A stretch of 64,000 bases of DNA from Flavobacterium aquiphilum (GTDB lineage: Bacteria > Bacteroidota > Bacteroidia > Flavobacteriales > Flavobacteriaceae): the NCBI RefSeq assembly GCF_027111335.1, contig NZ_CP114288.1, forward strand, positions 2,294,001 through 2,358,000, in the 5' to 3' direction. This document shows positions 3,177-39,092 of this stretch, piece by piece (positions within the stretch are counted from its first letter, which is position 1; each line of letters starts with the position of its first letter). The notes below the pieces were generated by a model, which saw only the letters and a list, made by a program, of their open reading frames with translations, was not told the origin of the DNA and did not search any database. The translations under genes were made by a program, and so were the position numbers.

Positions 3177-5447
3177 ATGAGAAATAATTGTTTTAGAGTA
3201 CTGTTTCAATTGGCTTTATTAATTGTATTTAATACCTCATGGAGTCAGGATGCAGTTCCAACAGGAACTACCCAACCGGTTTCAAAGTACGATTATCACG
3301 ATGCCTTTGGTCCATTTTTTTATACCAATAACGGTTCGTCAACACGATCTGCAAATGGAGCACCAGGACATGAATATTGGCAAAATAGGGCAGACTACAA
3401 ACTAACTGCCAAATTAAATGAAAAAACGAATGAAATTGTAGGTTCCGAAATACTTACTTATACAAATAATAGTACTGATGTAATGTCTTTTGTGTGGATG
3501 CATTTGGATCAAAATTTATTCAAATCAGATTCCAGAGGAAATGCTCTTATTCCATTGACGGGAAGCCGTAACGGAGCAAGAGGTGAAATTTTTGACGGTG
3601 GCCACAAAATTAAATCTGTTAAAATTGTTACTACTTCAAAAGGCGGAAAATCAACCGAAAAAGAAGCAAAATACACTATTACTGACACGAGAATGCAAAT
3701 TTTTCTTCCGGATAATTTGAAAGCCAAAGGTGGTGTAGTGAAAATTAAAATTGATTTCTCATTTATTTCTCCAAAAGAAGGTTCGGACAGAATGGGAGTT
3801 TTGGATACCAAAAACGGTAAAATTTTTACGATTGCACAATGGTATCCACGTATGTGTGTGTATGATGACATAAGAGGTTGGAATACGAATCCATATTTGG
3901 GAGCTTCTGAGTTTTATTTGGAGTATGGAGACTTTGATGCCAATATTACAGTACCTGCGAATCATGTTGTAGTTTGCTCGGGTGAGTTGCTAAATGCTTC
4001 TGCTGTTTATACTGCCGAAGAGCAAAAAAGAATTGCTCAAGCAAAACAAAGCGAGAAAACGGTTATGATTCGTACTGCTGAAGAAGTGGCTGCTAATGCT
4101 TCAAAAGCAGGAACAACTTCTGAAAAAACGTGGCATTTTAAAATAAAAAATGCTCGTGATCTTTCCTGGGCATCTTCTCCGGCATTTATTTTGGATGGAG
4201 CCAGAATTAATTTACCAAGTGGGGCAAAAGCATTGGCATTGTCTGCTTATCCTGTAGAAAGTGCAGGGAATGAGGCTTGGGGACGTGCTACAGAATATAC
4301 TAAAACTTCGATTGAGAATTATTCCAAAAGATGGTTTGAATATCCTTATCCAGTTGCGACAAACGTAGCTGGTAATGAAGGAGGAATGGAATATCCTGGA
4401 ATTGTTTTTTGTGGTTGGGAGTCAAAAGGAGAGGATTTATGGGGAGTTACAGACCATGAATTTGGTCATGGCTGGTTCCCAATGATTGTGGGTTCAAATG
4501 AGCGTTTATATGGTTGGATGGACGAAGGATTCAATACTTTTATTAATTCAATCAGTTCTTCTGATTTTAATAATGGTGAATATAAAGCTAAGCCAACAGA
4601 TCTTCATCAAAACGCGGATTATTTTACAAATCCAAAGAATGAACCAATAATGAGTTCTCCTGATAATATGAAAGAAAAAAATATTGGTCTTTTATGTTAT
4701 TTCAAACCAAGTTCGGGATTGATTACTTTAAGGGAACAAATATTAGGACCGGAGCGTTTTGATTTAGCGTTCAGGACTTATACAGAGCGTTGGGCTTTTA
4801 AACACCCGGCTCCGGACGATTTTTTCAGAACTATGGAAAATGTAGCAGGTGAGGACTTAAATTGGTTTTGGAGAGGTTGGTTTGTGAATAACTGGCGATT
4901 GGATCAAGGTGTGAACTCGGTTAAATATGTGAAAAATGCCCCAAGTAAAGGAGCTATAATCACTATTGAAAATTTTGAAAAAATGGCAATGCCAGTGGTT
5001 TTGGATGTAAAAACCAAAAGCGGAAAAGTAACCCGTGTTAAACTTCCAGTTGAGATCTGGCAGCGCAACGTTGATTGGTCATTTAAAGTAGAAACTACCG
5101 AAGAAATCGAAAGTGTAGTTATTGATGCCGATCATACATTCCCGGATGTGAATGAAAGCAATAATACTTGGAAATCAGGTACAGGAGTAGTTGAAAAAGA
5201 TATTATTTTGGATGGGTACCTAGGTAAATTCTCTACTAAAGCTGCTCCTTTGAAAATTGAGATCACCGAAAAAAACAGTGTTCTTTACGCTGAAATTACC
5301 AATTATCCGAAATTTTCACTTGCACCAATTGGTAAAGATAAATTTGAATCCAAAGAAGCAGGTGTAACCTTAGAGTTTAACGAGGCGAAAAATGCATTTG
5401 ATATGATTATCAGTTCCAACCAAAAGTTACCTTTTACAAGGGATTAG
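3177..5447 (+). CDS. M1-family exported metallopeptidase
   Basis: The 756-aa protein has an N-terminal signal peptide ending in TSWSQ. The zinc site is HEFGH at about residues 427-431, with the third ligand Glu at about 450 (WMDEG), giving the M1 spacing HExxH-x18-E. The exopeptidase motif appears as GGMEYPG just before it, in place of the usual GAMEN. The protein therefore probably acts as an aminopeptidase in the periplasm or outside the cell. The C-terminal 200 residues form an extra beta-rich region. It stands alone, with a hairpin terminator downstream at 5590. Confidence 0.9.
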
Positions 5448-6903: not shown

Positions 6904-8433
6904 ATGGTAAAGAAAAGTGTAGCTGTATTGGCAATATTATTTTTAATAGTAGGTTGTGATAACAACAACAATGATTCAAGTAAACCTACTGAAGAAACAG
7001 TAAATGAAAATCCGTCAACTTTCAAAGAAATTGGTTCTATAACCATTGGAGGTACAGCCGCCGCTGAAATTAGTGCTTATGACGAAACTACTAAAAAACT
7101 TTTTACCGTTAACAACAGTGGTGTGAACAGAATTGATATAATTGATCTTTCTGATCCTTCAAAGCCTACCATAGTTGGTAAAATTGATTTGACGGTTTAT
7201 AATGGTGCAGCCAATAGCGTGTCAACTTACAATGGAAAAGTTGCTGTAGCTATGGAATCTACCATAAACAAGCAAGATCCGGGTAAAGTTGCTGTTTTTG
7301 AAGCTTCAAATTATGCCCTTGTAAAAGAAGTAGCCGTTGGAGCATTGCCTGATATGATTACTTATTCTCCTGATGGAAAATTTATTTTGACTGCCAACGA
7401 AGGGGAGCCGAACGATACTTATTCGCAAGACCCGGACGGTTCGGTTTCTATTATTGATATAACGTCCAATTATGCTGTAACAACTTTGAATTTTGCAAGT
7501 TTTACGAGTCAATTAGCTGATTTAAAAGCGAAAGGGTTTAGGATTGCAAGCCCGACAAACAATTTTGCCGCCGATATTGAACCAGAATACATTACTGTTT
7601 CTGCCGATTCAAAAACAGCTTGGGTTACTTTGCAAGAGAATAATGGCATTGCTAAAATTGATTTAGCATCAAAAAAAATCACACAACTTTTTCCTTTAGG
7701 TTATAAAGATTACAATTTGGCTGAAAATGCTTTGGATATTAATGATAAAGATGGTGGTGTCGTTTTTAGTACCTGGAAATTGAAAGGCTTGTTTAATCCA
7801 GATGCCATTAGCAATTTTGAAGTGAATAACGTTCAGTATATTGTTACTGCAAATGAAGGTGATGCCCGTGAATATTCTGCTTTTACAGATGTTCGAAGAA
7901 TAAACCATTCTTCCGTTATTTTGGATCCGATTGCTTTTCCAAATGCAGCTTTGCTAAAAAATGATGCCAATATGGGAAGATTGAATATCAATGTGAAAAT
8001 GGGTGATACTGATGGCGATGGTGATCTTGATGAATTGGTTGCTTTTGGAGGTCGTTCTTTTTCAATATGGAATGCTAGTACAGGACAAATAGTTTTTGAC
8101 AGTAAAAATGAATTAGATAAAAAAGCATACGAAGCAGGTCTTTATGATGACGGAAGAAGTGATGATAAAGGTGTGGAGCCAGAAGCTGTTTATGTAACGA
8201 AAATGGGAGATAAGCAAATTCTTTTTGTGGGAATGGAACGCGCTGATGCGGTAATGGTTTTCGATGTAAGCAATCCAACGGCTCCAAAATACCTGCAAAC
8301 TTTAAAAACAGGTGATGCTCCTGAAGGACTATTGTTTATCCCGGCTTCTAAAAGTCCAACGAAAAGAACTTTGGTTTTGGCAAGTTGCGAAGGAGACGGT
8401 TCTATTAAAATTTTCCAGCCTGAATTAAACTAA
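6904..8433 (+). CDS. Choice-of-anchor I family lipoprotein
   Basis: The 509-aa protein starts with a lipoprotein signal (IVGCDNN), followed by a low-complexity Asn/Ser linker. The rest is a beta-propeller-like fold of the choice-of-anchor I family: repeated patterns such as ITYSPDGKFILTANEGEPND, ITVSADSKTAWVTLQENN and VTANEGDAREY, and a calcium-loop-like DTDGDGDLDE at about residues 362-371. Members are cell-surface proteins in many bacteria; function is unknown. It lies between aguA and aguB on the opposite strand, with no visible link to polyamine synthesis. Confidence 0.85.
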   Translation: MVKKSVAVLAILFLIVGCDNNNNDSSKPTEETVNENPSTFKEIGSITIGGTAAAEISAYDETTKKLFTVNNSGVNRIDIIDLSDPSKPTIVGKIDLTVYNGAANSVSTYNGKVAVAMESTINKQDPGKVAVFEASNYALVKEVAVGALPDMITYSPDGKFILTANEGEPNDTYSQDPDGSVSIIDITSNYAVTTLNFASFTSQLADLKAKGFRIASPTNNFAADIEPEYITVSADSKTAWVTLQENNGIAKIDLASKKITQLFPLGYKDYNLAENALDINDKDGGVVFSTWKLKGLFNPDAISNFEVNNVQYIVTANEGDAREYSAFTDVRRINHSSVILDPIAFPNAALLKNDANMGRLNINVKMGDTDGDGDLDELVAFGGRSFSIWNASTGQIVFDSKNELDKKAYEAGLYDDGRSDDKGVEPEAVYVTKMGDKQILFVGMERADAVMVFDVSNPTAPKYLQTLKTGDAPEGLLFIPASKSPTKRTLVLASCEGDGSIKIFQPELN

Positions 8434-32343: not shown

Positions 32344-34947
32344 ATGAACATAAACAAATTTACAATCAAATCGCAGGAAGCCATACAACTTTCACAACAA
32401 TTGGTTCAGAGTTTAGGGCAACAGCAAATAGAAAACGAGCATATTTTCAAAGCCATTTTTGAAGTCGATGAAAATGTGGCTCCATTTATTTTGAAAAAAC
32501 TAAACGTCAATGTTCCGTTGTTCAAACAAATTTTGGATGCAACCATTCAGAGCTTTCCAAAAGTTTCAGGAGGCGAAATCCAGCTTTCCAGAACTGCTAA
32601 CACCACGTTGAACGAAGCCGAAATCATAGCTCAAAAAATGAACGATGAATACGTTTCCATTGAGCACCTGATTCTAGCTATTTTCGATTCCAAAAGCAAA
32701 GCATCCCAAATCCTAAAAGATCAGGGTGTAACCGGAAAAGGACTCAAAGCCGCCATCGAAGAATTACGCAAAGGCGAACGTGTAACCTCAGCATCTGCAG
32801 AGGAAAATTACAATTCGTTAAACAAATACGCCAAAAACCTCAACGAACTGGCCAGAACAGGCAAACTTGACCCGGTAATTGGCCGTGACGAGGAAATACG
32901 CAGAGTTTTACAAATCCTTACCCGAAGAACCAAAAACAACCCAATGCTGGTGGGAGAACCCGGTGTGGGTAAAACCGCTATTGCCGAAGGTCTTGCCCAT
33001 CGAATTGTAGATGGTGACGTACCGGAAAACCTGAAAGAAAAAATCGTGTTCTCACTTGATATGGGAGCCTTGATTGCCGGTGCCAAATACAAAGGGGAGT
33101 TTGAAGAAAGACTGAAATCGGTGGTTAAGGAAGTTATCGCTGCCGAAGGTGATATTGTTCTTTTCATTGACGAAATCCACACGCTTGTGGGTGCAGGTGG
33201 TGGCGAGGGCGCGATGGACGCTGCTAATATCTTGAAACCGGCTTTGGCCCGTGGTGAATTGCGTGCCATCGGTGCTACGACTTTGGACGAATACCAAAAA
33301 TATTTCGAAAAAGACAAAGCCCTTGAACGTCGTTTCCAAAAAATCATGATTGAGGAACCCGATACCGAAAGTGCCATTTCGATTTTGAGAGGTATCAAGG
33401 AAAAATATGAAACACACCATAAAGTACAAATCAAAGACGATGCGATTATTGCTGCCGTAACGCTTTCGCAGCGTTATATCACCAATCGTTTCCTTCCGGA
33501 CAAAGCCATCGACTTAATGGATGAAGCTGCTTCCAAACTACGCATGGAAATCAACTCCAAACCAGAGGAATTGGACGTTTTGGACCGAAAAATCATGCAG
33601 TTGGAAATCGAAATCGAAGCCATTAAGCGAGAAAAAGACGAGAGCAAACTCAAAATCTTAGGTTTGGAACTGGCCAACTTGAAAGAAGAACGAAACGTAA
33701 TTTATGCCAAATGGAAATCCGAGAAAGAAGTTGCCGATAACATACAGGAAGTAAAAACCGAAATCGAAAATTACAAATTCGAAGCTGAACGCGCCGAACG
33801 TGACGGCGATTATGGTAAAGTGGCCGAAATCCGTTACGGAAAAATCAAGGAAGCCCAAGATCGATTGACTGAATATCAAAAACAACTAGTCGAAAACCAA
33901 TCGGGAACTTCCCTAATAAGAGAAGAAGTAACCCGTGAAGACATTGCCGAAGTGGTAGCCAAATGGACAGGAATTCCCGTGATGAAAATGCTGCAGGGAG
34001 AACGCGAAAAACTATTGCATCTCGAAACCGAATTGCATCACCGTGTTGTGGGTCAGGAAGAAGCCATTCAGGCCGTGAGCGACGCCGTAAGACGTAGCCG
34101 TGCCGGACTACAGGACACCAAAAAACCGCTAGGGACATTCCTTTTCCTTGGTACAACCGGAGTTGGAAAAACTGAATTGGCAAAAGCCTTGGCCGAGTAT
34201 CTTTTTGACGACGAAAACGCCATGACCCGAATCGATATGAGCGAATACCAAGAACGCCACAGCGTGAGCCGCTTGGTAGGTGCGCCTCCGGGCTATGTGG
34301 GTTATGACGAAGGCGGGCAATTGACCGAAGCCGTGCGTAGAAAACCGTATTCGGTGATACTTTTGGACGAAATCGAAAAGGCACATCCGGATACTTTTAA
34401 CATCTTGTTGCAGGTACTCGACGAAGGCCGCTTGACCGACAACAAAGGGCGTTTGGCCGATTTCAAAAACACTATTATCATCATGACTTCCAATATGGGA
34501 AGCCAGATTATACAGGAAAAATTTGAAAACCTAAAAGGAGGAATCGAAGCTGCCACCGAAATCGCCAAAATCGAAGTCCTCGGATTGTTAAAACAAACCG
34601 TGCGACCCGAGTTCATCAACCGTATCGACGAAATCGTAATGTTTACACCGCTTACATCTGAAAATATTACCAAAATTGTAAGTTTACAGTTGAAAAGCGT
34701 TACCAATATGCTTGCCCAACAAGGCATCACAATGGACGCAACGCCCCAAGCAATCGAGTATTTGTCCGAGAAAGGATATGATCCTCAGTTTGGTGCCAGA
34801 CCGGTAAAACGAGTAATCCAAAGAGAAGTTCTCAACAAACTCTCCAAAGAAATCCTCGCCGGAAAAATACATCCCGACAGCATCATCCTACTCGATGCCT
34901 TCGACAACGAACTCGTTTTCAGAAACCAAACCGAGTTGGCACACTGA
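32344..34947 (+). CDS. clpB: ATP-dependent disaggregase ClpB
   Basis: The 867-aa Hsp100 chaperone dissolves protein aggregates with DnaK. Domains in order are the N-domain (1-145), AAA1 with Walker A GEPGVGKT near residue 205, the coiled M-domain (about 400-525) that distinguishes ClpB from ClpA and ClpC, and AAA2 with Walker A GTTGVGKT near 605 and the pore loop GAPPGYVGYDEGG. Arginine-finger and sensor motifs (RPEFINRID, GARPVKR) are intact. A strong terminator follows at 35017. Confidence 0.95.
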   Translation: MNINKFTIKSQEAIQLSQQLVQSLGQQQIENEHIFKAIFEVDENVAPFILKKLNVNVPLFKQILDATIQSFPKVSGGEIQLSRTANTTLNEAEIIAQKMNDEYVSIEHLILAIFDSKSKASQILKDQGVTGKGLKAAIEELRKGERVTSASAEENYNSLNKYAKNLNELARTGKLDPVIGRDEEIRRVLQILTRRTKNNPMLVGEPGVGKTAIAEGLAHRIVDGDVPENLKEKIVFSLDMGALIAGAKYKGEFEERLKSVVKEVIAAEGDIVLFIDEIHTLVGAGGGEGAMDAANILKPALARGELRAIGATTLDEYQKYFEKDKALERRFQKIMIEEPDTESAISILRGIKEKYETHHKVQIKDDAIIAAVTLSQRYITNRFLPDKAIDLMDEAASKLRMEINSKPEELDVLDRKIMQLEIEIEAIKREKDESKLKILGLELANLKEERNVIYAKWKSEKEVADNIQEVKTEIENYKFEAERAERDGDYGKVAEIRYGKIKEAQDRLTEYQKQLVENQSGTSLIREEVTREDIAEVVAKWTGIPVMKMLQGEREKLLHLETELHHRVVGQEEAIQAVSDAVRRSRAGLQDTKKPLGTFLFLGTTGVGKTELAKALAEYLFDDENAMTRIDMSEYQERHSVSRLVGAPPGYVGYDEGGQLTEAVRRKPYSVILLDEIEKAHPDTFNILLQVLDEGRLTDNKGRLADFKNTIIIMTSNMGSQIIQEKFENLKGGIEAATEIAKIEVLGLLKQTVRPEFINRIDEIVMFTPLTSENITKIVSLQLKSVTNMLAQQGITMDATPQAIEYLSEKGYDPQFGARPVKRVIQREVLNKLSKEILAGKIHPDSIILLDAFDNELVFRNQTELAH

Positions 34948-35016
34948 TAAATAAAGTTACGTCAGTTCGAGTAAATTGGAAATGCGACAGCTTTTCAAAT
35001 TGAATCGAGAACCCCA

Positions 35017-35053
35017 AAACTGCAAAGTGCTAACGCTTTGCAGTTTTTTTTTT
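35017..35053 (+). terminator. Intrinsic terminator of clpB
   Basis: AAACTGCAAAG pairs with CTTTGCAGTTT around a short loop, followed by a run of ten T. It separates clpB from the accessory region beyond. Confidence 0.9.
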
Positions 35054-35260
35054 GAGCAGGACATTAGTGCTTAGTACAAATGTAATCCCACACACAACGT
35101 TAAAAAAGCCCAATTAACGAAGAAATCAGTTGCATTCTCAATCAATAAAAACAACCACTATCCATTCCCTACAAATAATACTACTTTTAAAAAATTAACT
35201 TCTTTGATATGTAAGAAATAATTTTAAATTTGTAAACACTGATAAATTAAACCAAAACAT

Positions 35261-35323
35261 GCGCATAACATACCAATTAAACGTAAAACTGGTTTTATTT
35301 ATGCGTATATAAACTAGTTATGC
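35261..35323 (+). other. attC-like site 1
   Basis: The outer arms GCATAAC (35263-35269) and GTTATGC (35317-35323) are exact complements. Inner pairing (ACCA with TGGT) is short. Length is about 63 bases, in the attC range. The cassette it would have closed upstream is not recognisable, as no gene lies between the clpB terminator and this site. Confidence 0.6.
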
Positions 35324-35342
35324 ACAAATATAAAACAGCCAA

Positions 35343-36206
35343 ATGACACTTTTAACAGCTGGAATAGACGACTTAGGAACAGAAAGACAACTATTAGAAG
35401 GTTGGTCTTATTTTGTAATTGAAAAGGAACTGCTTGATGAATTTTCTCAAAGGGCAAATGAATTACTTAATGGAATAGCATTAGATTCATTCCACGGGAA
35501 AAATTATAAAAGGAGATTTAAAGATAAATATTTGCAATTCCTCAAACTCTGTAGAGAGTATGCTGAGAAAAGTAAAATATCGCTAATTGGTGTTGTTTTA
35601 CAGAATCAAGAATGGAAAAATCAGTACATTCCATTTACCGAACGATTAATCAAAAACGTCTATGGAAAAAATGATATTGATGACCCTAATTTGGTTTCAT
35701 CTGCTCAAATGCTAACAAGTCCATTATTTACTTTACAACATTTGACTAAATCACTTTCTGCAGATTATGGAATACAAATAATAGTTGACAGTCATAATGT
35801 AACCCAAGGATTTGGAACACAAACTATTCAAGTTTCAAATTCAATAGGCTCAACAACTATGACATCAAATCAACTTCTTAATGTAATTTATAATGGCTAC
35901 AGAAAACTTCAATATCCTAATTCACCAACATTGATAGATGATGGTATTTCAGTGGTATCTGATGGAGATTCCTTTTTGATACAAGCTGCTGATATAATGG
36001 GTAATTTTTCATTATCGTATGCAAAGAGAAAACTTGGAGTGGAGACTAACACAATTGTCGAAAAAGCAGAAATATTTTCTGAAGTTTTTGGTGACGTATT
36101 CGACAGCAAGGATTTTAATACTGATTTTGAAATTTCTGAAACAGGAGAACTTAATTTGAAGTTTGACGGACAACAAACGCTGCTATTTGGTCGATATGGA
36201 GAATAG
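35343..36206 (+). CDS. Cassette gene 1, DUF3800-like putative nuclease
   Basis: The 287-aa protein starts 26 bp inside cassette 1. Its layout resembles DUF3800 (RNase H-like fold): an early Asp pair in TAGIDDLG, FHGKNYKRR near residue 52, IQIIVDSHNVT in the middle, and QAADIMGNFSLSYAKRK near residue 218, similar to the QLADLIA motif of that family. I rate the family call as tentative, since no exact signature is present. There is no signal peptide or membrane segment. Position next to a TIR gene in mobile cassettes suggests a defence role, an inference only. Confidence 0.6.
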   Translation: MTLLTAGIDDLGTERQLLEGWSYFVIEKELLDEFSQRANELLNGIALDSFHGKNYKRRFKDKYLQFLKLCREYAEKSKISLIGVVLQNQEWKNQYIPFTERLIKNVYGKNDIDDPNLVSSAQMLTSPLFTLQHLTKSLSADYGIQIIVDSHNVTQGFGTQTIQVSNSIGSTTMTSNQLLNVIYNGYRKLQYPNSPTLIDDGISVVSDGDSFLIQAADIMGNFSLSYAKRKLGVETNTIVEKAEIFSEVFGDVFDSKDFNTDFEISETGELNLKFDGQQTLLFGRYGE

Positions 36207-36213
36207 AATATCT

Positions 36214-36350
36214 GTGCATAACAGCACCTACCCAAAAGGCGGGTTTTCGTGCTTCTCAGACAGTTTTGTGGTAGCTGAAAGTTCAGTTCTTCGAATGAAG
36301 TTTAGTGCTAAAAATCCCGCCCTTCGGGTAGCTGCAAAACGTTATAAGCC
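36214..36350 (+). other. attC-like site 2
   Basis: The arm at 36214-36222 (GTGCATAAC) is the exact complement of the start of cassette 1. The long arms CACCTACCC...AAAGGCGGGTTTT and AAAATCCCGCCCTTCGGGTAG pair imperfectly with bulges, as in classical attC hairpins. The right arm ends in AACGTTATAAGCC, where cassette 2 begins. Confidence 0.75.
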
Positions 36351-36381
36351 ATTTTAGGAAGACACAACAAACATTAAAATT

Positions 36382-37209
36382 ATGGAATACAAATACGACA
36401 TTGCATTATCATTCGCTGGTGAGGACAGAGAATACGTTGATAAAGTTGCCCAAATTCTTAAAGACAAAAATGTTCGTGTTTTTTACGACAAGTTTGAAGA
36501 GGTTGACTTGTGGGGTAAAGACTTGGGTATTCATTTTGACTATGTTTACAGGCGACAATCAAAGTATTTTGTTCCTTTTATTTCAGTTCACTACGAACAA
36601 AAGGTATGGACAAATTACGAAGTGAGAACTGCTATTGCTCGTGCCATAGAAAACAAAGAAGAATACATTTTGCCTGTCCGTTTTGACAAGACAGAACTTG
36701 ACGGAATTCGTTCAACCCTTGGTTATCTTGACATAAGTAAAATGCCACCCGAAGAACTTGCTAATAAAATCCTTCAAAAACTAGGAAACGAAGCAAATGT
36801 TCCTGTTCCAGAAAAAGAAGAACCCAAAGGACAAGTGTATCTTTCTACTTACCTTCAAGTAAGTGAGTTTTACGGTATGACAGGTATAATGATTGGTGTT
36901 ACGGTTACAAACACTGTAAAAGATTACAGATACTTTGGCCCGCCTTACTTCAAAATCAGTCAGCCACTTCACGGGACAGCAGACACATTTCAATTAATGG
37001 ACGCAGTCACGCCAGTTAGCTTTCCTAAACGAATGGAGTATGGAGAACAATATCAAATAATGTATAATCTCAAACAAGGCTTCCTTGACCAAATGAAAGG
37101 TTTTGTCGGACAAGAAGTTACTCTAACAGCATTTGTGGGGACAACTGTTGGAGAAAAATTCAGTTCAAATCCAATGAACATTGACGACTTATTTAAGTTC
37201 AAAAATTAG
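36382..37209 (+). CDS. Cassette gene 2, TIR-domain protein with unknown C-terminal domain
   Basis: The 275-aa protein has a TIR domain at residues 4-125: YDIALSFAGEDREYVDKVA (strand A), VFYDKFEEVDLWG, YFVPFISVHYEQKVWTNYE, with W76 and the probable catalytic Glu80, then ILPVRFDKTELDGI. Bacterial TIR domains of this kind often cleave NAD+ or make cyclic ADPR signals in anti-phage defence. Residues 139-275 form a beta-rich domain of unknown type that may sense a ligand or partner. No membrane segment. The ATG lies 41 bp inside cassette 2. Function in defence is inferred. Confidence 0.8.
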   Translation: MEYKYDIALSFAGEDREYVDKVAQILKDKNVRVFYDKFEEVDLWGKDLGIHFDYVYRRQSKYFVPFISVHYEQKVWTNYEVRTAIARAIENKEEYILPVRFDKTELDGIRSTLGYLDISKMPPEELANKILQKLGNEANVPVPEKEEPKGQVYLSTYLQVSEFYGMTGIMIGVTVTNTVKDYRYFGPPYFKISQPLHGTADTFQLMDAVTPVSFPKRMEYGEQYQIMYNLKQGFLDQMKGFVGQEVTLTAFVGTTVGEKFSSNPMNIDDLFKFKN

Positions 37210-37242
37210 AATGACAAAAGCAATGACGACAGAAATAAAAAC

Positions 37243-37379
37243 GGCTTATAACACGGGTTTTGCGTCAGGCAGGCTGACGTGCAAACTTGAAGTTTTGTGC
37301 TTCTAATAAACTTTAGTAATAAATTGAAGCCTTGTGCTCCGAAACTCGCCCGCACGCAAAGCCCGAAAACGTTGGTGGC
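37243..37379 (+). other. attC-like site 3
   Basis: GGCTTATAAC (37243-37252) is the exact complement of the start of cassette 2. The arms ACGGGTTTTGCGT... and ...ACGCAAAGCCCGAAAACG pair well, the middle holds a variable part. The right arm ends in AACGTTGGTGGC, the start of the next cassette. Confidence 0.75.
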
Positions 37380-37415
37380 AAGTTTAACGAAAATTGTAAA
37401 TAAACAAAATATATT

Positions 37416-37586
37416 ATGGGACATAAATTCGTGATCATAATCAATAAAAAACTTACATTAAAAGCTAAATTAGTGTTAATATTCGTTGTTATTTTGTTAT
37501 TTTCTTTATTAGTTAGTTATGTTTTTATTTCATCATTTGATAAAGGATTGGAAAGAAAATTAATTGACAAAAATGAAAGAAAATAG
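37416..37586 (+). CDS. Small membrane protein in truncated cassette 3
   Basis: The frame gives 56 aa with a hydrophobic stretch at about residues 19-40 (LVLIFVVILLFSLLVSYVFI) flanked by Lys-rich ends. It begins 45 bp inside cassette 3. No attC matching the cassette start (expected complement CTTGCCACCAAC) was found before the IS, so the cassette is incomplete. The protein may be the N-terminus of a longer histidine kinase-like or secreted protein that was disrupted; I do not recognise a family. Confidence 0.35.
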   Translation: MGHKFVIIINKKLTLKAKLVLIFVVILLFSLLVSYVFISSFDKGLERKLIDKNERK

Positions 37587-37816
37587 ATACTACTTTGAGA
37601 GTAAATCTAACGGATGGAGGAGCTGAGGGATTAAGTTGTCATACTTATGATTTAGAGCGAGAAGAGAGTTTTGAAACATTTACACCGACTGTAGGCTCAG
37701 ACTTTCTTAATGGGTATAAGAATACAGTTTGTGATTGGGATAAGATACCTCAATCTGTTTTAAAACCTAATCAACCTATTATAAAAAAGAGGACAAAAAG
37801 CTTTTGGACATGCTAA
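37577..37816 (+). pseudogene. Unrecognised coding fragment truncated by IS
   Basis: A frame open from 37577 gives IDTTLRVNLTDGGAEGLSC..., rich in Asp, Thr and Asn, and runs into the left inverted repeat of the IS (ending FWTC then stop). It has no convincing start codon (TTG at 37595 at best). It looks like an internal piece of a protein cut by the IS, in another frame than the preceding 56-aa gene. No family recognised. Confidence 0.35.
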
Positions 37817-37860
37817 TTTAGCCATCACAGAAAGTTAAGAAATAATCTTAATTTTAACCT

Positions 37861-38160
37861 ATGAAACAAGTCCGCAAAGTTTACGACAAAGCTTTTAAAG
37901 AGAAAGCAGTGCAATTGAGTTATGAGAGAACAAACCTATCTGAATTCGCCAGAGAATTAGGAGTAACAGCCCCACAATTGTATAAATGGCGTAAAGAGTT
38001 CGAAGAATTTGGAGAAGGAAGTTTTCCAGGTAAAGGGAATTTAAAACTAACACCCGAACAAGAAAAAATCTATGAACTTGAGAAAAGACTCAAAGATGCC
38101 GAGTTGGAGCGTGATATATTAAAAAAAGCAATCGGCATTTTTTCCAAGAGCGGTCGATGA
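37861..38160 (+). CDS. IS3-family transposase OrfA
   Basis: The 99-aa protein has the helix-turn-helix of IS3 OrfA: KVYDKAFKEKAVQLS at the start, NLSEFARELGVTAPQLYKWRKEF as the HTH, and a C-terminal leucine-zipper-like coiled coil (KIYELEKRLKDAELERDILKKA). A run of seven A followed by G at 38121-38128 is a likely -1 frameshift site for making the OrfAB fusion. The stop overlaps the OrfB start by four bases (ATGA). Confidence 0.9.
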   Translation: MKQVRKVYDKAFKEKAVQLSYERTNLSEFARELGVTAPQLYKWRKEFEEFGEGSFPGKGNLKLTPEQEKIYELEKRLKDAELERDILKKAIGIFSKSGR

Positions 38161-39092
38161 TTTATAGTTTCATTAAAAACAATGAACAAGTATTTCCGAT
38201 TGAAAAAATGTGCAAAGTTCTAAAAGTGAACAGTGGAAGCTATTACCGATGGAAAAAACAAATAATTAGTGCACGATTACAACGAAAAATTGCCACAAAA
38301 GAAGAAATAACATCGGTATATTTTAAATCCAAGCAACGCTACGGAAGTCCCAGAATAACATTAGAGCTTCAGAGTTTAGGCTATAAAATTTCAAGGATTA
38401 CCGTCTCAAAATATATGAAAGAATTGGGCTTGCGAAGCAAATTAAGCAAGAAATTCAAGGTAACAACCAATTCTAATCATAATTATTTAGTCGTTGAAAA
38501 TGTATTAAACAGGGAGTTTACCGTGAATATGCCTTCAAAAGTTGGGGTGTCTGACATTACATATATCCAGACCAAAGAAGGATTTGTATATCTGACCACT
38601 ATTATGGATTTGTACGATAGAAAAATTATAGGTTGGAGTTTAAGCGATGGAATGAGTACAGATGACCCGAGCGATAGCGAACAGACGAAGCAAACCACAC
38701 TTGGAGCTTGGAAAATGGCTGTTAAAAATCGAAATATTGAGCAAGATTTAATTTTCCATTGCTTCGCCAGTTCGAGCATAGCTCTCGTGTCTGACAGAGG
38801 TATTCAATATGCCAGCAAAAAGTTTGTAAATGTTCTTGAATCCTATAAAAAAATAACCCGAAGTATGAGTCGAAAAGGAAATTGTTGGGATAATGCGGTA
38901 GCGGATAGCTTCTTTAAATCCTTAAAAACTGAATTGATTTATGGAAACAAACTCATTTCTAAAGAACAAATGAAACTGGAAGTCTTTGAATATATTGAGA
39001 TTTGGTACAACAGAAAAAGAAGACATTCAGCTTTGAATTATGCAACTATTGAAGAATTTAACAATCAAATTAATTATAAAAATGTAGTTTAA
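38157..39092 (+). CDS. IS3-family transposase OrfB (DDE), with two odd in-frame insertions
   Basis: The 311-aa protein has an HTH_21 region (KSKQRYGSPRI) and an rve integrase core. The DDE residues are in VGVSDITYIQ, LVSDRGIQYAS and KSLKTELIYG. Compared with the normal family spacing, about nine extra residues (DPSDSEQTK) sit after STD near residue 170 and about ten (CFASSSIALV) sit directly before SDRG near residue 205. The DNA of the two insertions is mutually inverted. The second adjoins the catalytic Asp and may impair activity. Confidence 0.85.
   Translation: MIYSFIKNNEQVFPIEKMCKVLKVNSGSYYRWKKQIISARLQRKIATKEEITSVYFKSKQRYGSPRITLELQSLGYKISRITVSKYMKELGLRSKLSKKFKVTTNSNHNYLVVENVLNREFTVNMPSKVGVSDITYIQTKEGFVYLTTIMDLYDRKIIGWSLSDGMSTDDPSDSEQTKQTTLGAWKMAVKNRNIEQDLIFHCFASSSIALVSDRGIQYASKKFVNVLESYKKITRSMSRKGNCWDNAVADSFFKSLKTELIYGNKLISKEQMKLEVFEYIEIWYNRKRRHSALNYATIEEFNNQINYKNVV

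Follow-up and report, generated by a model that had tools for sequence, protein, structure and literature searches.

A probable relic of a chromosomal integron type in Flavobacterium aquiphilum, with a short tyrosine recombinase beside related arrays

How do two gene cassettes come to stand in integron order at a place where no integrase is found? The question is raised by a locus of Flavobacterium aquiphilum within a 64,000-nucleotide stretch of DNA (NZ_CP114288.1, positions 2,294,001 to 2,358,000), which we call the window. The source genome is a single contig of 5.05 Mb (G000; window C1:2294001-2358000). Integrons with the integrase IntI carry an attI site by the integrase gene, one-way arrays of cassettes with about one gene each, and attC sites that form imperfect hairpins; crossover takes place at G|TT, and the R'' arm of each attC is complementary to the start of its own cassette. 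With a probability of about 0.87, we read the locus as the relic of a chromosomal integron type that is widespread in Bacteroidota: attI and two cassettes were kept, the integrase was lost, and a short tyrosine recombinase was its cognate enzyme. That the locus works like an integron is a statement we make with high confidence. The core parts are as follows, the attC sites being placed by a covariance model, R1, that was built from 24 sites, two of them from the window.

35251..35319, plus strand: attI, the cassette insertion site, with the crossover before base 35317 (A|GTT), placed by an attI matrix and by alignments
35317..36340, plus strand: cassette 1, 1024 bp, whose first 10 nt are the reverse complement of an arm of its own attC
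36212..36350, plus strand: attC of cassette 1, 76.8 bits with R1, a member of the R1 training set
36341..37370, plus strand: cassette 2, 1030 bp, whose start matches its own attC arm over 15 nt at 93%, the first 10 exact
37242..37379, plus strand: attC of cassette 2, 156.7 bits with R1, a member of the R1 training set

Both cassette lengths reproduce those of the first-pass annotation, which had also proposed that each cassette begins with the reverse complement of an arm of its own attC. The two pairs were found again, with an exact complementary run from the crossover of 10 nt in cassette 1 and 10 nt in cassette 2, and a repeat search returns them as inverted pairs of 15 nt at 93% (35317-35331 with 36208-36222, and 36341-36355 with 37238-37252). 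The same register, taken as at least 5 nt after GTT complementary to the cassette's own attC arm, was assessed at 18 loci with at least two sites, to which the window contributes one pair. It is present in 101 of 132 consecutive pairs, including that of the window, compared with a mean of 12.9 and a maximum of 26 in 2000 rounds of random pairing within loci; among neighbours no more than 1500 bp apart it is present in 89 of 102. When both arms are taken from a single site, a run of 5 nt occurs in only 5 of 156. This analysis used 164 of 176 R1 matches (both anchors in 156 of the 164), leaving out six second matches on the opposite strand at the same place, one match at a contig end and five of odd length. 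Chance had been judged unlikely to give the register twice in the window, and we agree, because random R''/R' pairings reach a run of at least 5 after GTT in about 3.5%. The register is the trace of integron recombination, in which an attC consists of the left arm of its own cassette and the start of the next.

The attC sites belong to a large family. At E 0.01, R1 sites occur in 112 of 150 genomes of the genus, with 56 matches in F. enshiense DK69 alone. R1 matches nine places in the F. aquiphilum genome, seven of them in addition to the window pair. Across the phylum, at least one site is present in 126 of 296 genomes; counted by genus, it is 75 of 139 (E 1e-4). The E-values of R1 are rough, and the control outside Bacteroidota therefore matters: among genomes reached via recombinase loci, sites are present in 6 of 7 from Bacteroidota and in 0 of 29 from outside the phylum. 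As a plain DNA query, 37242-37379 finds matches in 22 of the 150 genus genomes, its own included, and the right border of the rows falls mostly at query position 137-139, which is the R' box. In the R box, GTT and AAC are nearly fixed, the next base is mostly a purine and the rest is variable. A longer query, 35270-37400, matches 78 others among 398 genus genomes at E 1e-20. The rows listed lie at the two attC sites, many spanning query positions of about 950-1075 (36219-36344, the attC of cassette 1), with one exception, a row of G660 that matches part of cassette 1 at 70%; a single fixed block of DNA in relatives, which the first-pass annotation had named as the contrary outcome, is not what this search returned. 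Shared cargo may have been missed by it, because two candidates per genome were scored. Elsewhere in the source genome, L233 (G000:C1:3160001-3180000) is a sparse cluster of three attC on one strand, about 6.5-7 kb apart.

Evidence for hairpins comes from the family as a whole. Over a 14-pair stem in 149 distinct sites, 94.2% of cells are paired, against 64.3% in shuffled and at most 48.4% in slid alignments; stem cells changed on both sides number 518 versus 141, and the covariation score is 0.678 versus 0.158 shuffled and at most 0.083 slid. Folding of single sequences was dropped as proof, two of three sites behaving like shuffles: on the minus strand, 36212-36350 folds as DNA better than all of its 200 shuffles (z -4.25), and no excess over shuffles is seen at 37242-37379 (z -0.96) or 35260-35326 (z -1.53). 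As only one of the three window sites stands out, such folding is weak support, and it is therefore the covariation over 149 sites that carries the hairpin claim.

Three attC sites had been claimed for the window. Two of them, 36212-36350 and 37242-37379, are retained by R1, which was trained on relatives and on these two; the first, at 35251-35319, is instead an attI, its reading as an attC having been rejected on its rank in an attI matrix. This matrix was built from 15 attI of other loci, without the window site, and ranks 35317 first among 127,958 positions on both strands, with a score of 20.4 and the next at 13.4. The attI motif reads ..GCGYATATANACWA|GTT, and in relatives the crossover of the first cassette follows the recombinase stop codon. 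The window attI aligns with that of F. aciduliphilum and with two other copies in its own genome. From 26 loci examined, the 11 left out of the matrix were two divergent ones (L115, L117), one without a match (L155), and L009, L114, L122, L123, L127, L128, L157 and L182, whose crossover was judged by eye to lie behind an attC end; of these eight, L009, L114, L127 and L128 turned out to have attI-like sites when searched with the matrix. Of 22 recombinase loci not used for training, 14 score at least 15 within 250 nt after the stop codon, at 89-109 nt or, for a long recombinase kind, 36-45 nt; some are near-copies, either among themselves or of loci used for training, and the random background for this comparison was partly drawn from the same loci.

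Relatives thus have attI beside an integrase gene, while the window keeps attI without one, which leads to the nature of that integrase. The IntI model TIGR02249 is over its cut-off in 0 of 150 genus genomes. What the model finds is a family of tyrosine recombinases that match it in two pieces, at about model positions 2-177 and 239-315, and the skipped part (about 178-238) is the place of the extra domain of IntI. Between the lysine motif and LRH the array-linked proteins have 66-71 residues versus 109 in four IntI of the same phylum, and they are about 42 residues shorter at the position of the IntI insert. Most of those examined are 276-370 amino acids (aa) long, and some with a longer N-terminus have 456-683 aa. 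In 11 aligned recombinases the R, K, H-x-x-R, H and Y columns, which we take to be the expected active site, are invariant in all. An N-terminal domain with a W..xxxW.LPD-like pattern is present in 10 of the 11 and absent from the 276 aa protein, and about three copies of the W.LPD-like pattern are visible by eye in the 580 aa kind. None of four scanned recombinases reaches the IntI cut-off, and one of the four scores 221.9 bits against NCBIfam NF040815, 'site-specific tyrosine recombinase/integron integrase', whose cut-off is 220. The XerD model gives 187.5 bits for the L124 recombinase, and the database names among the relatives listed are tyrosine-type recombinase, integrase and XerD. In a tree from which three recombinases were left out because they had been read in a wrong frame, the four IntI group together as a clade at the end of a long branch, apart from short types in several lineages on an unresolved backbone; for these two reasons the tree was dropped as a means of placing IntI. 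The recombinase gene ends about 36-160 nt before attI and mostly runs in the direction of the array (23 of 26 loci). In one genome, about 11 kb of sequence (G139:C1:1003435-1014526) contains three tyrosine recombinases of 320 aa whose scores are identical.

Recombinase and attC sites occur together. The 30 best recombinase loci by the IntI model (L083-L112) are not a random set, and the 11 used for co-location are those with the most contig after the gene among the loci not already analysed; L113-L126, chosen for known sites, were not counted. At these 11 loci, not chosen for known sites, 7 have attC downstream on the recombinase strand, and control stretches of 20 kb have attC in 0 of 4. Sites were present at three of five further loci (L127, L128 and L130, not L131 or L132). 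When named genomes were scanned by recombinase, 15 of the best 80 loci carried sites, all 15 titled Bacteroidota or its subgroups; in 12 the sites lie downstream on the recombinase strand, and in L165, L179 and L211 before the recombinase on the other strand. At the level of genomes, at least five sites are found in 46 of 86 with a recombinase versus 4 of 64 without (p 2e-10, recombinase at E 1e-24), or in 42 of 79 versus 8 of 71 at E 1e-27 (p 4e-8), and at least one site in 73 of 86 versus 39 of 64 (p 0.001), the E threshold for recombinase presence having been chosen after the scores were known.

Movement of whole cassettes is visible in single cases, taken from 187 matches of at least 300 bp, among which recombinase genes are frequent. 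G061 has two copies of a 1170 bp stretch at 99.6% identity, one behind attI and the other behind an attC at a second locus about 437 kb away; identity starts at GTT in both copies, and the sequences part after ..CAAACC|GTT. A 1230 bp cassette of G045, 100% identical, is present after attI and elsewhere in the array after an attC, and G047 has two 100% identical copies of 1153 bp in one array. Between G047 and G132 a 1.27 kb stretch is shared at 80% and ends within 17 nt of the crossovers. By global alignment, the flanks of shared cassettes are 53-61% identical. The earlier proposal of integron-type recombination at G|TT is therefore supported by the register in other arrays, by covariation and by near-identical cassettes with G|TT borders.

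What became of the integrase in F. aquiphilum? The first-pass annotation had reported none nearby, in agreement with our comparison at protein level, in which tblastn gave nothing significant for an integrase at 34901-35345. A faint DNA trace of a 3' end is present: from 35148 onward the window aligns with the 3' ends of the recombinases of L009 and of F. aciduliphilum (L146). For 35148-35214, 2 (L009) and 4 (L146) of 500 shuffles score as high, as do 0 (L009) and 1 (L146) of 500 random window pieces. The best reading of these alignments is that an integrase may once have stood at the window locus and then been deleted. An intI elsewhere in the genome, which the annotation had considered along with other arrays, was not recovered: no IntI is above cut-off, and the candidate was set aside when the best match to the IntI model (93.7 bits) turned out to be a piece of a broken short-type recombinase. 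This gene lies 99 kb from the window locus, split into two open reading frames (ORFs) in different frames (L009, 8605-9632); the N-terminal part shares 68% identity with an array-linked recombinase, and an attI follows after about 120 nt. Other recombinases of the genome that were compared (L002, L004-L007) are 29-32% identical to the array-linked set, and no intact short type was met among the IntI-model matches compared, one match at 772300 being outside the comparison. Near the broken gene, L009 (G000:C1:2221001-2241000) also holds an attC at 4524-4662 and, by eye, a reverse-transcriptase-like ORF at 7157-8056.

Altogether the genome has three attI, at 2229485 (behind the broken recombinase), 2329317 (the window) and 3568592. 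The last of these (L232, G000:C1:3557001-3577000) is followed by a two-ORF cassette, SRPBCC/MarR-like by eye, and an attC, and an IntI-model search finds no recombinase near it.

The other parts of the locus complete its anatomy.

35148..35214, plus strand: possible decayed 3' end of a lost short-type integrase gene, at the place of the integrase stop codon in relatives; suggestive only
35343..36206, plus strand: ORF of cassette 1, 287 aa, an orphan family without a Pfam or PADLOC family
36382..37209, plus strand: ORF of cassette 2, 275 aa, a TIR-domain protein and candidate anti-phage defence gene (Pfam, PADLOC)
37371..37860, plus strand: start of a third cassette, interrupted by an IS3-type element
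37861..39092, plus strand: transposase pair (HTH_Tnp_1; rve, by Pfam) of an element we take to be IS3-type

The order is clpB (ORF end 34947), 300 bp, attI with its cassettes, and the insertion element; clpB is our presumed name for the upstream ORF, to which similarity in relatives adds. At 17 loci of the genus with a clpB tail, no recombinase or attC lies in the 1.4-1.5 kb after clpB (1 nt only in L253), and an orthologous integron behind clpB was rejected for these 17; the locus therefore looks lineage-specific, and is not datable. The ORF of cassette 1 has no Pfam family over cut-off and no PADLOC family, and of its 18 database relatives the five named ones are all 'hypothetical protein'. 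That of cassette 2 matches PF13676 TIR_2 (E 6.5e-16) and, in PADLOC, the candidate PDC-S66 (1e-16) and a ThsB-type family (2.9e-6). For the third cassette no attC was found, in that no reverse complement of at least 8 bases of its start occurs downstream in the window. In G082 the first cassette after attI encodes an AbiP2-type defence reverse transcriptase (L120, 3144-4673; 701.7 bits, PADLOC), and nine of ten further cassette ORFs scanned have no Pfam family. The first half of the window contains six matches to Flavo-1 RNA at the gathering threshold (1373-31523).

Anatomy, register, covariation, attI, co-location and cassette borders are shown, and with them an association of these arrays with the short recombinase. 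In the mechanism we propose, the attC of a circular cassette would fold as a single strand, and this recombinase would use the fold to join the cassette either to attI, with the crossover at A|GTT, or to a different attC, with the crossover at C|GTT. The R'' of each attC would thereby stay complementary to the start of its own cassette and not to the present right neighbour. Cassettes 1 and 2 would have been captured in this way before the integrase was lost.

Several results weigh against this reading. The register is missing in 31 of 132 pairs, 18 at gaps above 1500 bp, where a site was probably overlooked by the search, and 13 at shorter gaps. The covariation alignment was fitted to the R1 structure, and its counts lean towards that structure. 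Eight of the 22 recombinase loci score below 15 for attI; the training attI of L130 and L167 rest on a 7-nt match, and the recombinase frames of L125 and L142 stop prematurely, leaving 209 and 178 nt up to attI. Two attI of G000 have no recombinase beside them, and the trace at 35148-35214 is weak. No site is in reach at 4 of the 11, 2 of the 5 and 65 of the best 80 recombinase loci, the last of these sets including short contigs and many loci from outside Bacteroidota. In the tree the array-linked recombinases are not one clade, and activity of the short recombinase is inferred. Also on this side are G055 and G132, which hold 20 sites each and have nothing above Xer level among their matches to the integrase model. 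These two genomes would fit an explanation in which the short recombinase is an accessory and another host recombinase, XerC/D-like, acts on the hairpins, and the resemblance of the short type to Xer, seen in the XerD score of L124, agrees with it. We regard this as quite unlikely given the position of attI shortly after the short recombinase and the co-occurrence of recombinase and sites.

Could an ordinary IntI, complete with its insert, have collected the cassettes and been lost later, the short recombinase being a bystander? The cassette logic, with G|TT and an R'' complementary to its own start, is that of integrons, and 84 of the 296 phylum genomes have a canonical IntI over cut-off. All of these but G198 are outside the window's class, however, none of the 150 genus genomes has an IntI over cut-off, and it is the short recombinase that occupies attI in the loci examined. 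G179 and G453 do have a canonical IntI, but it is located elsewhere; their R1-type sites are instead no more than about 2 and 6 kb from a short-type match. A canonical origin is thus quite improbable. A further alternative is that a different kind of mobile element (REP/RAYT-like, IS or terminator-type) distributed the hairpins as repeats and genes were caught in between by chance. This would account for sites that are single and dispersed, which is the case for several of the nine in G000, but a self-copying repeat predicts neither a left arm matching the start of the preceding unit (101 of 132), on which failure a repeat-only origin was rejected, nor arrays that run one way next to a single recombinase, nor entire cassettes found both at attI and after an attC with G|TT borders, and we consider it extremely improbable.

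The preferred reading, a relic of an integron served by a short recombinase, can be set beside known systems. With IntI integrons (class 1, the Vibrio superintegron) the arrays share attI, one-way order, hairpin attC, G|TT and the R'' register. They differ in an integrase without the IntI-specific insert (66-71 versus 109 residues), in the attI motif ..GCGYATATANACWA|GTT and in an integrase that mostly points in the array direction. The R box of IntI integrons has the consensus GTTRRRY / RYYYAAC; here GTTR is followed by mixed bases, with complementarity over about 9-10 nt. The arrays are not IntI integrons, because the defining insert of the integrase was looked for and not found. As in a cluster of attC sites lacking integrases (CALIN), the window has two attC and no integrase nearby; unlike a CALIN it keeps attI, and is therefore an integron that lost its integrase and not a group of stray cassettes. 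IntegronFinder selects integrases by the insert, and selection of this kind would explain how the short-type set was missed. A related case may be Riemerella anatipestifer, presumably a member of the same order as F. aquiphilum. One report describes its aph(3')-IVb unit as having a 140 bp 3' hairpin likened to attC and as inserting at one site without flanking homology (PMC13148043). Compared by description, the unit is like ours in having a gene with a 3' attC-like hairpin, and differs in that the text at hand names no recombinase, attI or array (PMC13148043).

In the accessible portion of another study the insert is called essential for integron function, and an 'Integron-like' subgroup of tyrosine recombinases is set out whose members without the insert are not linked there to arrays, a comparison made by description only (PMC8138268). 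Bacteroidota are among the phyla with integrons in PMC9668308 and PMC8618304, and we take these to be IntI-type because PMC9668308 calls the additional domain a defining mark. A 2008 survey likewise chose integrases by the insert (PMC2426708). As far as the excerpt of the IntegronFinder 2.0 paper goes, Salinibacter ruber is the one named complete integron in Bacteroidetes proper (PMC9024848), in contrast to sites in 126 of 296 genomes of the phylum. Among the literature matches listed, integrons with short integrases in Bacteroidota are not described in titles or the starts of abstracts; a preprint, a subscription paper or an unlisted match is possible.

We consider it probable that Bacteroidota, and the window's class above all, run a phylum-wide integron class of their own, whose integrases never had or dispense with the I2 insert, which was overlooked because searches require that insert, and which has anti-phage genes among its cargo. 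It may be the missing intermediate in the origin of IntI, or it may have arisen independently, the part of I2 perhaps being played by the N-terminal W.LPD domain. In the view set out in PMC7790495, it was by acquiring the I2 helix that integron integrases became able to recombine single strands, and intermediates are lacking. Relatives of F. aquiphilum appear to use an enzyme without the part thought essential for cassette capture, and attC-type arrays beside integrases without the insert would make the question of I2 testable with living enzymes. The reading might also bear on homology-free gene capture as reported in Riemerella (PMC13148043). If it is true, Bacteroidota hold an added reservoir of mobile genes, whose anti-phage cargo so far consists of the TIR candidate of the window and the array with the AbiP2-type reverse transcriptase.

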